From the NCBI RefSeq assembly GCF_031432215.1, contig NZ_JAVKGN010000001.1, forward strand, positions 1,789,421 to 1,853,420: a stretch of 64,000 bases of DNA. Reading direction: 5' to 3'. The notes below the pieces were generated by a model that was given only the letters and a program-made list of their open reading frames with translations, was not told where the DNA came from and ran no database searches. Of the stretch, positions 25,112 through 27,799 are shown in pieces; within the stretch, counting starts at the first letter, position 1; each line of letters starts with the position of its first letter. The stretch is from Halodesulfurarchaeum sp. HSR-GB (GTDB lineage Archaea > Halobacteriota > Halobacteria > Halobacteriales > Halobacteriaceae). Position numbers and translations under genes: made by a program.

Positions 25112-25345
25112 GCGACGGGAGTCCCGCGAGGCGGGCGGCGAAGCCGCCAGCTGGGCGAACGGCGTCGCCGTGAGCCAGCGAGAGGGACTACGTCGCGGCC
25201 GCGATGTGTTTCGAAGAAACCGGAGCGGGCGCGACGGGATTCGAACCACCTGAAGACTCGCGTTGCTCGTCTTCCGTAATTCGAATCCCGCGTGCCGGTT
25301 CGCTCGTTTTACTCGCTGCACGGGCGCGACGGGAGTCCCGCGAGG
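25112..25345. repeat. Tandem partial copies of the tRNA-Arg 3' end
   Basis: A 20-bp sequence at 25112-25131 recurs exactly at 25326-25345. A 68-bp block at 25180-25247 recurs at 25349-25416 with two mismatches, and the second copy runs into the real tRNA-Arg gene. Each copy contains the last 20 or so bases of the tRNA (GCGACGGGATTCGAAC on the plus strand). The copies differ by about 45 bp of extra GC-rich hairpin sequence in the first. Open frames across this region are translations of the repeat and not genes. Confidence 0.85.
25235..25290. repeat. T-arm hairpin element at the tRNA-Arg locus
   Basis: Perfect 11-bp arms CGGGATTCGAA (25235-25245) and its complement (25280-25290) enclose an inner 6-bp stem GAAGAC (25252-25257) / GTCTTC (25269-25274) with an 11-base loop. 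The left arm is the T-arm of the adjacent tRNA; the right arm is an inverted copy of it. The same design appears at the tRNA-Gly locus at 27638-27700. Confidence 0.8.
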
Positions 25346-25394
25346 AACGAGAGGGACTACGTCGCGACCGCGACGTGTTTCGAAGAAACCGGAG

Positions 25395-25467
25395 CGGGCG
25401 CGACGGGATTCGAACCCGCGATCTAGAGGTTAGGAACCTCTCGCCGTATCCTCTTGGCCACGCGCCC
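25395..25467 (-). tRNA. tRNA-Arg (CCT)
   Basis: 73 nt. Acceptor stem GGGCGCG/CGCGCCC, D stem GCC/GGC, anticodon stem AGAGG/CCTCT with loop TTCCTAA giving anticodon CCT (reads AGG), 5-base variable loop, and T-arm GCGGG-TTCGAAT-CCCGT. Discriminator base G; CCA is not encoded. On the 3' side the gene is followed by duplicated copies of its own 3' end. Confidence 0.93.
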
Positions 25468-25500
25468 CGAAAACCGGTTCGGGCGGGCGGGGAAAAACGG

Positions 25501-25764
25501 TTACTCTTCGGTCCGCTCTGACTCGGTCTCGGACTCGCTCTCCGCGACGGCGCGGTCGGACTCCTCGGGCCCTTCTTTGATCTCTTCGAGTTCCTGTTCG
25601 ATCTCCTCGCGACCGCGCTGGAATTCACCCATGGCCTGCCCCGTCGACCGGGCCAGCTTGGGGATCTTGTTCGCCCCGAACAGGAGGACGGCGATCAACA
25701 GAATGATGGCCAGCTCCATCCCGCCTGCTGGGAGCCCGAATGCGGGTAACACCTCGATTGTCAT
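25501..25764 (-). CDS. tatA: Sec-independent translocase TatA
   Basis: 87 aa. One membrane helix (MELAIILLIAVLLFGANKIP, residues 16-35) is followed by the amphipathic helix KLARSTGQAMGEFQRGREE with the conserved FGANKIPKLARS hinge, and then an acidic tail. The start with 15 extra residues before the helix is supported by a TATA box CCTATAATC (plus-strand 25784-25792) about 27 bp upstream. TatA forms the pore of the Tat pathway, which haloarchaea use for most secreted proteins, such as the BMP lipoprotein in this window. No tatC is adjacent. Confidence 0.93.
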   Translation of the reverse strand: MTIEVLPAFGLPAGGMELAIILLIAVLLFGANKIPKLARSTGQAMGEFQRGREEIEQELEEIKEGPEESDRAVAESESETESERTEE

Positions 25765-25861
25765 TACAAAGTTGTAACTCAGTAGCGATTATAGGCTTTA
25801 TGCTCCGACCCGGTACTCCCAGTCACTGGGAACTATCTATCGGGCCGGCGTCGGGGCCTGT

Positions 25862-26659
25862 ATGAGCAACGGCACGCTCCCCTACGATCCCGAAGCCGAT
25901 CACTCGTTCCCGGACGAGCGACTCAACGAGATCCTGGGGGACGTCCTCGACGATCCCGAGGTCCAGGCGTACCTCGAAGCACAGAACGTCAACCCGGTTA
26001 CCCGGAAGGGCTACAACGACCACGGGGAGAAACACATCGAGATCGTCCGGAACCGGGCCCTCCAGCTCTACGAGCTACTCAAGCGAGCCACCGTCCCGTT
26101 CAACGGGGCGACTGACCAGGGTCTCCAGGAGGCCGACGAACCCGTCATCGTCGCGCTCGCCGCAACGCTCCACGACATCGGGCACGTCGTCCACCGGGAC
26201 GATCACACCTACTACTCGATCATCATCGCTGCGGACCTCCTCGATCGACTCCTCGAGCCGTATTACGACATCGGCGAGCGAGTCCGAATGAAAGGCGAGA
26301 TCCTCCATGCGATCCTCTGTCACCACTCGGCAGAGGAGCCCCTGACGACCGAGGCGGGAGTGATCCGGGTCGCAGACGCCCTGGACATGGAGCGCGGTCG
26401 CTCACGCATCCCCTACGAACGGGGTGGGCGCGGGATCAACACCATCTCCAGCCAGGCCATCGACCGGGTCGAACTCCTGGAGGGAGACACCAAGCCGGTG
26501 CTCGTCGAGATCACGATGCGAAACGCGGCCGGCGTCTACCAGGTCGACGGGCTGCTCAAGAACAAACTCGAAGGATCGGGACTGGAAGAACTGGTCAGGA
26601 TCGTCGCGGTGAACACCACTGGCGGCGACGATCGCCTCGTCGAACGGATCGAGCTCTAG
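25862..26659 (+). CDS. HD-domain phosphohydrolase
   Basis: 265 aa. HD motifs: YNDHGEKHIEIVRNRALQLY (first His), LAATLHDIGHVVHRDDH (HD pair), ILCHHSAEEP and RVADALDMERGR (last Asp). The order H...HD...H...D is complete, so it should be an active metal-dependent phosphohydrolase, perhaps acting on nucleotides. A TATA-like ACTATCTA at about 25830 fits the start. Its stop is directly followed by the stop of the convergent gene. Confidence 0.87.
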   Translation: MSNGTLPYDPEADHSFPDERLNEILGDVLDDPEVQAYLEAQNVNPVTRKGYNDHGEKHIEIVRNRALQLYELLKRATVPFNGATDQGLQEADEPVIVALAATLHDIGHVVHRDDHTYYSIIIAADLLDRLLEPYYDIGERVRMKGEILHAILCHHSAEEPLTTEAGVIRVADALDMERGRSRIPYERGGRGINTISSQAIDRVELLEGDTKPVLVEITMRNAAGVYQVDGLLKNKLEGSGLEELVRIVAVNTTGGDDRLVERIEL

Positions 26660-27409
26660 TCAGTCCAAAAACGCCGACAGCGAGGACTCGGTCCGGGGCC
26701 GTGTCTCGGAGATCCGCAGCGCGTACACTCCCTGCAAGTCGGTCGACCTGGCCCAGTCCCGGAGTTGTCCCTCCCGTTCGGGATCGAGTGCCAGAGCCTG
26801 TTGATCCTCGCCCACTCGACTGACGCCCACAAAGCCTTCGGCCAGTTCCTCGACGAACCGCCCCAACGAGCGCCCGTAGAGGTATTGCTCGATCGACTGA
26901 CTACTGATCGGTTCGGAGAGTGCCAGCAGACTCTGGGCTGGAATCGCTCGGGTCCCCGCATCGTCCACGACCAGCAGAAAGGCCGCCGACGTCCGCTCGG
27001 TGAGGGACGCCATCCGATCCCGTATCGGACCCGGCTCACTAGCGGCGCTCTCGGCCGGAATCTGTGAGGTATGGACGACCGTCGCGAGAACCACGTTCGT
27101 TGCCTCGTAGCTGGGGAGGTCGACGTGCACGGAGAAGCCGAGATCGAGCCCGATCGGGTCCGTCCCCGGTGACGAATCGTCGGTCACGCGAACCCCTCGT
27201 GCCTCGAACTCGGCTCGGTCGAGACTGAGGCCCGCGGTCTCACGAGCCATCTGACGCAGGAGTTCCTCGCTGACCCGGACCCCCACTCGAGCCGCCGAAT
27301 CGCTCAGGCCGCCTCGGTGGGCCGAGGTTACGTCCGCTGCGTCTGCCACCTCTCGGCCGGCGGTTTCGACGGCCGATCCAAGCGCGTTTACGAACCGATA
27401 CGCCCGCAT
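26660..27409 (-). CDS. Conserved haloarchaeal protein of unknown function
   Basis: 249 aa, acidic, no membrane segment or signal peptide. I recognise no catalytic motif. It begins with MRAYRFVNALGSAVETAGRE and has a mixed alpha/beta C-terminal half (AAFLLVVDDAGTRAIP, LYGRSLGRFVEELAEGFVGV). Base composition matches its neighbours and the coding frame is intact, so it is very probably real. It converges on the HD gene and lies next to the tRNA-Gly repeat region. Confidence 0.65.
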   Translation of the reverse strand: MRAYRFVNALGSAVETAGREVADAADVTSAHRGGLSDSAARVGVRVSEELLRQMARETAGLSLDRAEFEARGVRVTDDSSPGTDPIGLDLGFSVHVDLPSYEATNVVLATVVHTSQIPAESAASEPGPIRDRMASLTERTSAAFLLVVDDAGTRAIPAQSLLALSEPISSQSIEQYLYGRSLGRFVEELAEGFVGVSRVGEDQQALALDPEREGQLRDWARSTDLQGVYALRISETRPRTESSLSAFLD

Positions 27410-27552
27410 GTCACGCTGTCGAACGGGGACGGCCTTGAAGGATGCGGTCGGGCGGACGGATTTGGGGTCTGCAGGGAAGAATATGGCAGACCCGTGCTGC
27501 AGCGGTTGGAGTCACACCCAATTCAACAGCCGCTTGCGGTCTTTTCCCCAAG

Positions 27553-27589
27553 TTTTTGCGAGGGGCTGCGCAGCAGCCCCTCGGAAAAA
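27553..27589. repeat. 37-nt palindrome with T/A flanks
   Basis: A perfect 10-bp stem GAGGGGCTGC (27560-27569) / GCAGCCCCTC (27573-27582) with a 3-base loop is extended by TTTTT on the left and AAAAA on the right, giving 16 pairs and one mismatch over 17 positions. It has no T-run on the 3' side of either strand in the usual terminator place. It lies 50 bp before the tRNA-Gly hairpin element in a 320-bp gene-free gap. Confidence 0.7.
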
Positions 27590-27637
27590 GTGGCTCGCCT
27601 TCGAGGGACTCAGACCGTTCGTCCCTCGCTATGCGCC

Positions 27638-27700
27638 GGCCGGGATTCGAACCCGATGGCGAGACTCACGGTGTTCGTCTCGCGTGATTCGAATCCGGCC
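27638..27700. repeat. T-arm hairpin element at the tRNA-Gly locus
   Basis: The left arm GGCC-G-GGATTCGAA (27638-27651, one bulged G) pairs with TTCGAATCCGGCC (27688-27700). An inner stem CGAGAC (27660-27665) / GTCTCG (27677-27682) closes an 11-base loop. The left arm belongs to a 22-bp copy of the tRNA-Gly 3' end at 27633-27654, and the right arm is its inverse. The design matches 25235-25290 at tRNA-Arg, with different stem bases that still pair. Confidence 0.8.
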
Positions 27701-27728
27701 TGCTCGTTCGCTCGTAAAACTCGCTCAC

Positions 27729-27799
27729 TGCGCCGGCCGGGATTCGAACCCGGGCCATGAGCTTGGAAGGCTCAGGTCCTACCGCTAGACCACCGGCGC
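27729..27799 (-). tRNA. tRNA-Gly (TCC)
   Basis: 71 nt. Acceptor GCGCCGG/CCGGCGC, anticodon stem TGAGC/GCTCA with loop CTTCCAA giving anticodon TCC (reads GGA/GGG), T-arm CCGGG-TTCGAAT-CCCGG, discriminator A, no encoded CCA. A truncated second copy of its 3' end sits about 97 bp further downstream in the tRNA's own direction. Confidence 0.93.

Follow-up and report, generated by a model that had tools for sequence, protein, structure and literature searches.

T-arm hairpin units downstream of tRNA genes in Halobacteria

The tyrT repeats of Escherichia coli, or rtT RNA, are 178 bp long, lie in tandem behind a transfer RNA (tRNA) gene, and each carry the 19-nt tRNA 3' end; a search of the open-access literature found no paper on rtT RNA. 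Among archaeal integrases, IntSSV1 makes cuts that border a 7-nt tRNA loop, and by extrapolation the same is taken to hold at tRNA loops for IntpT26-2 and IntpTN3 (PMC8371274). Integron attC sites recombine as folded single strands which possess an unpaired central spacer and a variable terminal structure (PMC8946536), and archaeal integrons have been described without mention of Halobacteria (PMC9668308). The subject here is a family of short, hairpin-forming ‘units’ found at tRNA 3' ends, as seen in ‘the window’, that is, a 64,000-nucleotide stretch of Halodesulfurarchaeum sp. HSR-GB (NZ_JAVKGN010000001.1, positions 1,789,421 to 1,853,420), and then across Halobacteria. In a unit the tRNA 3' end is followed by a spacer, then by an inverted T-arm and an inner hairpin, and last by a second tRNA 3'-end copy (T54–A73). 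Units are non-coding, roughly 100–170 bp long, single or tandem, and in nearly all cases have the orientation of the tRNA. As T54–A73 stands on both sides of the unit, the tRNA stays intact.

Two such hairpins are present in the window, one at tRNA-Arg and the other at tRNA-Gly. The original prediction saw these as being of the same design, with inner 6-bp stems and 11-nt loops, and this is borne out both in the sequence and by folding. On the plus strand the Arg hairpin reads GAAGAC-11 nt-GTCTTC (25253–25275) and the Gly hairpin CGAGAC-11 nt-GTCTCG (27661–27683), with outer arms in both cases consisting of T-arm sequence and its inverse. What had been given as the tRNA genes themselves, i.e., 25235–25290 (Arg) and 27638–27700 (Gly), are in fact the hairpins. 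The genes, hosts of the first and second array, respectively, are found instead at 25394–25467 (tRNA-Arg, CCT) and 27729–27799 (tRNA-Gly, TCC), both on the minus strand (ARAGORN; Rfam RF00005), with both hairpins downstream of the tRNA 3' ends. Folding on the tRNA strand gives z-scores of -4.3 (Arg) and -3.9 (Gly) as RNA and of -5.5 (Arg) and -4.0 (Gly) as DNA, none of 200 shuffles doing as well, and at the close of each hairpin the local tRNA 3' end is copied without error over 20 nt, from T54 up to and including the discriminator base (20/20 at both).

Reading downstream from tRNA-Arg, on the minus strand throughout, there is a partial tRNA-Arg 3'-end copy starting at T60, the right T-loop end (25321–25335, from the 3'-end copy survey and breakpoint analysis), the spacer TGCAGCGAGTAAAACGAGCGAACCGGCA (25293–25320), the inverted T-arm arm CGCGGGATTCGAA (25280–25292), an inner hairpin that is a type A variant (GGAAGAC..GTCTTC; 25246–25279, with a match to the covariance model R1, described below, at G000:C1:1814666-1814700), and the direct copy T54–G73 (25226–25245; 19/19 in the arm comparison). 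The Arg hairpin thus stands about 100 nt from its tRNA, with another unit in between, the one whose 3'-end copy starts at T60. A 69-nt stretch (family D2, 25179–25247), consisting of the tRNA 3' end and the stretch downstream of both tRNA and copy, is repeated at 25348–25416 with 97% identity. The Gly unit directly adjoins the tRNA-Gly 3' end and runs, also on the minus strand, from the spacer GTGAGCGAGTTTTACGAGCGAACGAGCA (27701–27728) through the inverted arm GGCCGGATTCGA (27689–27700) and a type A inner hairpin (ATCACGCGAGAC..GTCTCGCCATCGGG; 27652–27688, R1 match G000:C1:1817072-1817108, E 1e-13) to the direct copy T54–A73 (27632–27651; 20/20), this being a unit that is absent at the same tRNA in a congener. 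The ‘tail’ GTTCGCTCGTWWWACTCGCT that the original prediction placed after each hairpin does exist, though as the spacer between tRNA and hairpin. The other two tRNAs of the window, tRNA-Ser (GCT) and tRNA-Leu (CAG), are without a unit, and neither hairpin is matched by Rfam 15 covariance models, which find only tRNAs and, over the tRNA gene itself, a weak mascRNA match. A second recurrent palindrome, CCCACTTTTTCCGAGGGGCTGC..GCAGCCCCTCGCAAAAACTTGGGGAAAAAGACCGC, closes arrays at Gly and Leu tRNAs (window 27530–27590, and many host-genome arrays, e.g., L036, L046, L063), while at Ala, Phe and Pro tRNAs the closing palindrome is the similar CACCTTTTTCGTCGTCGGGTGCG..GAAAAATC; both are possibly terminators.

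Rather than being a match between two loci, the design recurs, often in tandem, at about half of the tRNAs of the host genome. This is a 2.25-Mb haloarchaeal genome (G000) with 44 tRNA matches, the tRNA regions of which were analysed, and 22 of the 44 are followed within 650 nt by a copy of their own 3' end, where a copy means 13 of the last 14 nt. The ends of other, foreign tRNAs, used as control, give an expectation of 0.07. In the congener G001, own-end copies accompany 16 of 41 tRNAs, with 0.08 expected. The fetched loci hold 157 copies near tRNAs, of which 155 are found on the downstream side, no more than 800 nt away, and 2 on the upstream side. That these are chance structures, or a coincidence of two loci, is rejected by the fold z-scores together with the own-end copies at 22 of the 44 host tRNAs.

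Since tRNA sequence was to be kept out of the query, two covariance models were built of the inner hairpin only, i.e., without the T-arm: R1 for type A (ATCACGCGAGAC..GTCTCGCCATCGGG) and R2 for type B (CCCT-stem..stem-TCCGG). Matches were obtained in 46 (R1, E up to 0.05) and 43 (R2, E up to 0.001) of 59 haloarchaeal genomes. Position was checked at the 30 best loci per model, one per genome. With R1 the match lies 0–600 nt behind a tRNA in 24 of 30 (same strand in 23; 8 isotypes) and with R2 in 27 of 30 (same strand in 27; 13 isotypes), two of the three R2 exceptions standing behind a truncated or unrecognised tRNA (L140, L143). In a stricter search among 148 genomes drawn from the phylum, R2 matched 18, all from the same order, and none outside it. 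When one type B hairpin is used as an exact search pattern, 15 named loci are recovered (Halobellus, Halohasta, Salinigranum, Halapricum, Haloarcula, Halorientalis, Halonotius and others). They follow tRNAs for Ser, His, Gly, Leu, Lys, Arg and Val, with an Asp-type end adjoining as well, and have the arms of the local tRNA.

The six R1 exceptions score at most 36.5 bits and resemble dispersed palindromes, while every one of the 11 loci that score above 40 bits stands at a tRNA. Matches unrelated to tRNAs were to count against the original prediction, and here a distinction is needed, as the full design does keep to tRNAs whereas the inner hairpin alone occurs away from them as well, at 36.5 bits or less. 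Haloarchaeal palindromes found off tRNAs have the form GGAAGAC-GA-RC-GNA-GY-GA-GTCTTCC (G023, with 29 R1 matches; L104, L111, L119), their tips joining tandem GA mismatches with GNA triloops, which is a combination that gives very stable DNA mini-hairpins. A GNA-type tip is seen in 42 of 69 units, and in the window the GNA-tip motif is not enriched (1 found, 1.3 expected). At L040 (902–995), ARAGORN calls a tRNA-Ser (CGA) inside the array behind a tRNA-Ala, probably a false call from hairpin plus tRNA-Ala end copy, and such false calls are likely to bring errors into haloarchaeal annotation.

The arms of a unit follow the tRNA behind which that unit stands. Over 93 units, found through their inner hairpin, the direct arm shares 13.7 of 16 positions with its own tRNA versus 8.7 with tRNAs swapped (9.4 being the maximum of 500 swaps), and the inverted arm 7.9 of 10 versus 7.0 (maximum 7.2). 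When gaps are permitted, the score of the inverted arm is 11.2 for its own tRNA as compared with 8.2 for others, and in 36 of 68 units the own-tRNA score is better than that of 95% of other tRNAs, though the arm's acceptor part hardly tracks the tRNA (4.74 vs 4.44 of 8). The direct copy, that is, is exact, while the inverted copy is looser, tracking the tRNA in its T-loop and T-stem part. The inner stems covary in turn: 95.7% (type A) and 92.6% (type B) of cells are paired, with 0 of 500 shuffles as good, 20 (A) and 23 (B) cells changed on both sides, and slid structures far worse, these being figures which are biased towards structure as the alignments were drawn from units that fold. The internal-loop motifs CCCT/TCCGG and ATCAC/CATCGGG recur over genera and tRNA isotypes. 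Since template switching is known to create as well as repair hairpin arms (PMC8794818), this covariation is not to be taken as proof of a functional RNA.

The 5' limits of downstream copies are bimodal, with 119 of 155 at 49–53 and 22 at 60–61, and as tRNAs and the hairpin end both conserve G52 and G53, the first edge is read as G53|T54. The two breakpoints, G53|T54 and T60|C61, are thereby both ends of the 7-nt T-loop. Two plasmid-type tRNA arrays, from a Haloarcula halophila plasmid (L167) and from G028 (L118), give the same points from another direction, as tRNAs which are intact in one array may be split in the other: the split falls at 53/54 in tRNA-Cys and tRNA-Ser but at 60/61 in tRNA-Pro and tRNA-Tyr, with tRNA-Cys interrupted by a type B hairpin. 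These inserts are without duplication of the tRNA end, and inspection by eye revealed no bulge-helix-bulge introns in the split tRNAs. A plasmid search returned one match, which is inside a tRNA array, and for the type A hairpin there was no plasmid match. Several tRNAs are split by T-loop hairpin inserts within L167 (NZ_CP119561.1, 3858–6993) and across the whole of L118, with further splits in the D-loop of Gln (L118) and the anticodon loop of Ala (L167). The L167 array is near a TROVE (Ro60-like) gene, a type B DNA polymerase and an orc1/cdc6 gene.

Units also differ in presence between close relatives. Orthologous tRNAs of the host genome and of G001, a species of the same genus, differ by whole units, with flanks that are otherwise about 94–96% identical. 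At Glu-CTC, for example, G001 reads tRNA..GGAGCA|TGCGAGACACGAACG, an exact empty site, where the host genome reads tRNA..GGAGCA|unit|TTCAAATCCCTGTCGGAGCA|TGCGAGACACGAACG, i.e., a direct duplication of the tRNA 3' end flanks the insert and the tRNA is restored. Whole units are likewise found in only one of the two species at Gly-TCC, Asp-GTC, Met-CAT and Arg-CCG. Spacers and inner hairpins are common to different isotypes within one genome, with shared stretches including 136 bp at 85% between Leu-GAG and Val-CAC and 123 bp at 85% between Lys-TTT and Ser-TGA.

The preferred reading, which is held tentatively and with something short of even confidence, is of a family of non-coding units that inserts one-way at the tRNA T-loop, in the manner of tyrosine-recombinase-like cassette sites. 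The core site would be the T-arm of the tRNA gene, in which a 7-nt loop is enclosed by two stem arms of 5 bp each, with strand exchange occurring at the loop ends, G53|T54 or T60|C61. The unit hairpin may fold as single-stranded DNA or as a cruciform, in which form its inverted and direct arms would remake a double-stranded T-arm and thereby act as the partner. Tandem arrays would then come from repeated insertion beside the tRNA or from recombination between copies. Such exchange between T-arm and folded unit is favoured because the loop-end breakpoints are those of the tyrosine-recombinase core plan while the hairpin is of the attC plan. As with attC sites, folds and alignments display two stems, an unpaired spacer and a variable terminal loop, and, as with the attachment sites of tRNA-targeting integrases, there is tRNA-end duplication (Glu-CTC), and the breakpoints border on both sides a 7-nt loop that lies between inverted arms. 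The family itself, its position and orientation, the matching of arms, the covarying inner stems, the whole-unit differences between species and the two breakpoints are observed; what is presumed in this reading is a recombinase, a folded-DNA substrate, and selection, rather than template switching, as what keeps the arms matched. A fuller version, possible though on the whole rather doubtful, is of a haloarchaeal cassette system in which the T-loop would be attI-like and the T-arm hairpin attC-like, with a putative tyrosine recombinase inserting and shuffling gene-free units behind most tRNAs by single-strand exchange at one or the other T-loop end.

A number of observations weigh against this recombinase reading. 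No recombinase gene accompanies the arrays, and the host genome's four PF00589 matches all lie outside the window, which agrees with the statement of the original prediction that no integrase is nearby. Tyrosine recombinases are present in 43 of 43 good genomes, none linked to arrays, and because all of these genomes have them an association by presence and absence is uninformative; the integron integrase (TIGR02249) is above its cut-off in 0 of 59 genomes. The attC R-box consensus is GTTRRRY / RYYYAAC, from which the arm departs, reading GTTC[AG]A.. with C as fourth base in nearly all copies. Inner modules and spacers common to several isotypes in one genome are unlike what a strictly tRNA-specific circle would leave, and homologous recombination between copies can also gain or lose units. 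No such site was found in viral contigs, and none in phages. Template switching, furthermore, could match arms and stems without function (PMC8794818).

The strongest rival is this last combination taken by itself, i.e., enzyme-free recombination between copies along with template switching. Tandem palindromic repeats would spread and contract through homologous recombination and replication slippage, with template switching, which is known to make and mend hairpin arms (PMC8794818), then matching arms and stems. That arrays are tandem and locally homogenised, that whole-unit differences are bounded by repeats, and that long partial matches connect arrays of different tRNAs are all to be expected of such a process. 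The explanation is nevertheless unlikely, as it does not readily yield copy starts that are sharply bimodal at both T-loop ends, plasmid tRNAs that are hit at the same points without duplication, a single orientation of units, unpaired inner-hairpin motifs that are kept across genera, or single units at exact empty sites.

Casposons target tRNA genes. A staggered-cut integrase or transposase, whether a casposase, Cas1-like, or of the type that moves miniature inverted-repeat transposable elements (MITEs), might be considered, which would insert a spacer-hairpin and leave the 20-nt tRNA 3' end as a target-site duplication, each addition repeating that end in the manner of a CRISPR array. The Glu empty and filled pair is readable as a 20–22 nt duplication of the tRNA 3' end, and casposons are published integrases with target-site duplications. 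This is improbable, however, given that the insert holds an inverted T-arm which follows the local tRNA, as would be unexpected of a transposing element, that there are no terminal inverted repeats, and that the plasmid inserts lack duplication.

The units might also be ordinary attachment-site relics, left behind at tRNA 3' ends by large integrated elements such as proviruses or plasmids, in favour of which is that haloarchaeal elements do integrate at tRNA 3' ends (PMC8371274; PMC3119063). This too is improbable, as the same hairpin modules occur at 13 isotypes, class-wide, and as no such hairpin is present at tRNAs in viral contigs or phages. Viral origin was itself rejected: both hairpin-type patterns are unmatched in viral contigs, one short pattern has 7 matches there with none at tRNAs, and the whole Met array as query finds phage tRNA genes only. 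In G029, moreover, a partial tRNA-Gly of about 45 nt stands with an array, at a distance of about 8 kb from the intact tRNA-Gly gene, likely as the far end of a larger insertion, and ordinary integration therefore seems to use another breakpoint. That locus (G029:C1 113184–121445; L018, L143) comprises a tRNA-Gly, an integrase-like gene at 114012, and, at about 121.4 kb, the partial tRNA-Gly, itself followed by a T-arm unit; it looks like an 8-kb integrated element which displaced an existing array.

A role at the RNA level, whereby the hairpin would mimic the T-arm and acceptor end within the tRNA precursor and so guide or compete in 3' processing, or would give rise to a small tRNA-like RNA, is very improbable, for while the covarying inner stems and conserved internal loops, the place and orientation behind tRNAs, and the one plasmid copy, which belongs to a tRNA array close to a TROVE (Ro60-like) gene, are in its favour, half of the genome's tRNAs have no unit and orthologous tRNAs gain or lose theirs, TTTT occurs within 20 nt at 19 of 44 tRNAs as a likely terminator before the unit, and the hairpins have no Rfam match.

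The remainder of the original prediction is supported in part. The covariation it pointed to is seen again, with inner stems that covary across the family alignments, and its expectation from covariance searching is upheld, with matches recurring at tRNA 3' ends across Halobacteria and arms following the local tRNA. Comparison of relatives supplies whole units gained or lost between related species, with exact empty sites, and because whole units differ within a single genus the label of attachment-site ‘relic’ fits poorly. Of the proposed non-autonomous element copying the T-arm of its host, the location at tRNA 3' ends and the matching of arms hold, while the T-arm may be either actively copied by the element or kept matched by recombination and template switching, and an integrase elsewhere may act on it. 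The T-loop-end breakpoints point to the chemistry thought to be used by tRNA-targeting integrases, and the units offer a clean case in which to test for folded-DNA recombination in archaea and to tell selection from template switching behind covariation. Duplications of haloarchaeal tRNA 3' ends are also not by themselves marks of proviruses.

In comparison with known systems, this appears to be a so far undescribed, class-wide repeat family at half of tRNA genes, with no earlier description found in open-access text, though an account in a subscription journal is possible. I know of no miniature element that takes on host tRNA sequence in its arms, and a host-matching inverted T-arm is absent from the related repeats compared (Haloquadratum, Methanopyrus, archaeal integrons, E. 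coli tyrT). The tyrT repeats, unlike the units, involve one tRNA, without an inverted T-arm hairpin or a cross-isotype family. MITEs, PATEs and small mobile repeats of Haloquadratum resemble the units in being short, non-coding, palindromic and multi-copy in haloarchaea, but have fixed ends which do not follow the target, are not tRNA-bound, and do not duplicate tRNA ends (PMC3119063). Rather than the constant terminal inverted repeats and short target-site duplication anywhere in the genome that define a MITE, the units have arms that vary with the tRNA and top matches behind tRNAs. The palindrome of Methanopyrus kandleri is likewise behind about half of tRNA genes, but is short, about 10 bp from the tRNA, without a tRNA-end copy, and reported as species-specific (PMC5217627). 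With the tyrosine integrases of SSV, pT26-2 and SNJ2 the units share a duplicated tRNA 3' end, a restored tRNA and cuts at tRNA-loop ends (PMC8371274), those elements however being kilobases long and integrase-bearing where the units are about 100–170 bp, hold an inverted T-arm, are tandem, and occur at half of all tRNAs. Integron arrays, lastly, resemble the units in possessing a folded hairpin site with outer arms, unpaired centre, inner stem and variable tip, and in growing in tandem from a fixed target in one orientation; the units differ in being without genes, in having as arms the tRNA T-arm rather than R and L boxes, and in having as their target a tRNA gene.

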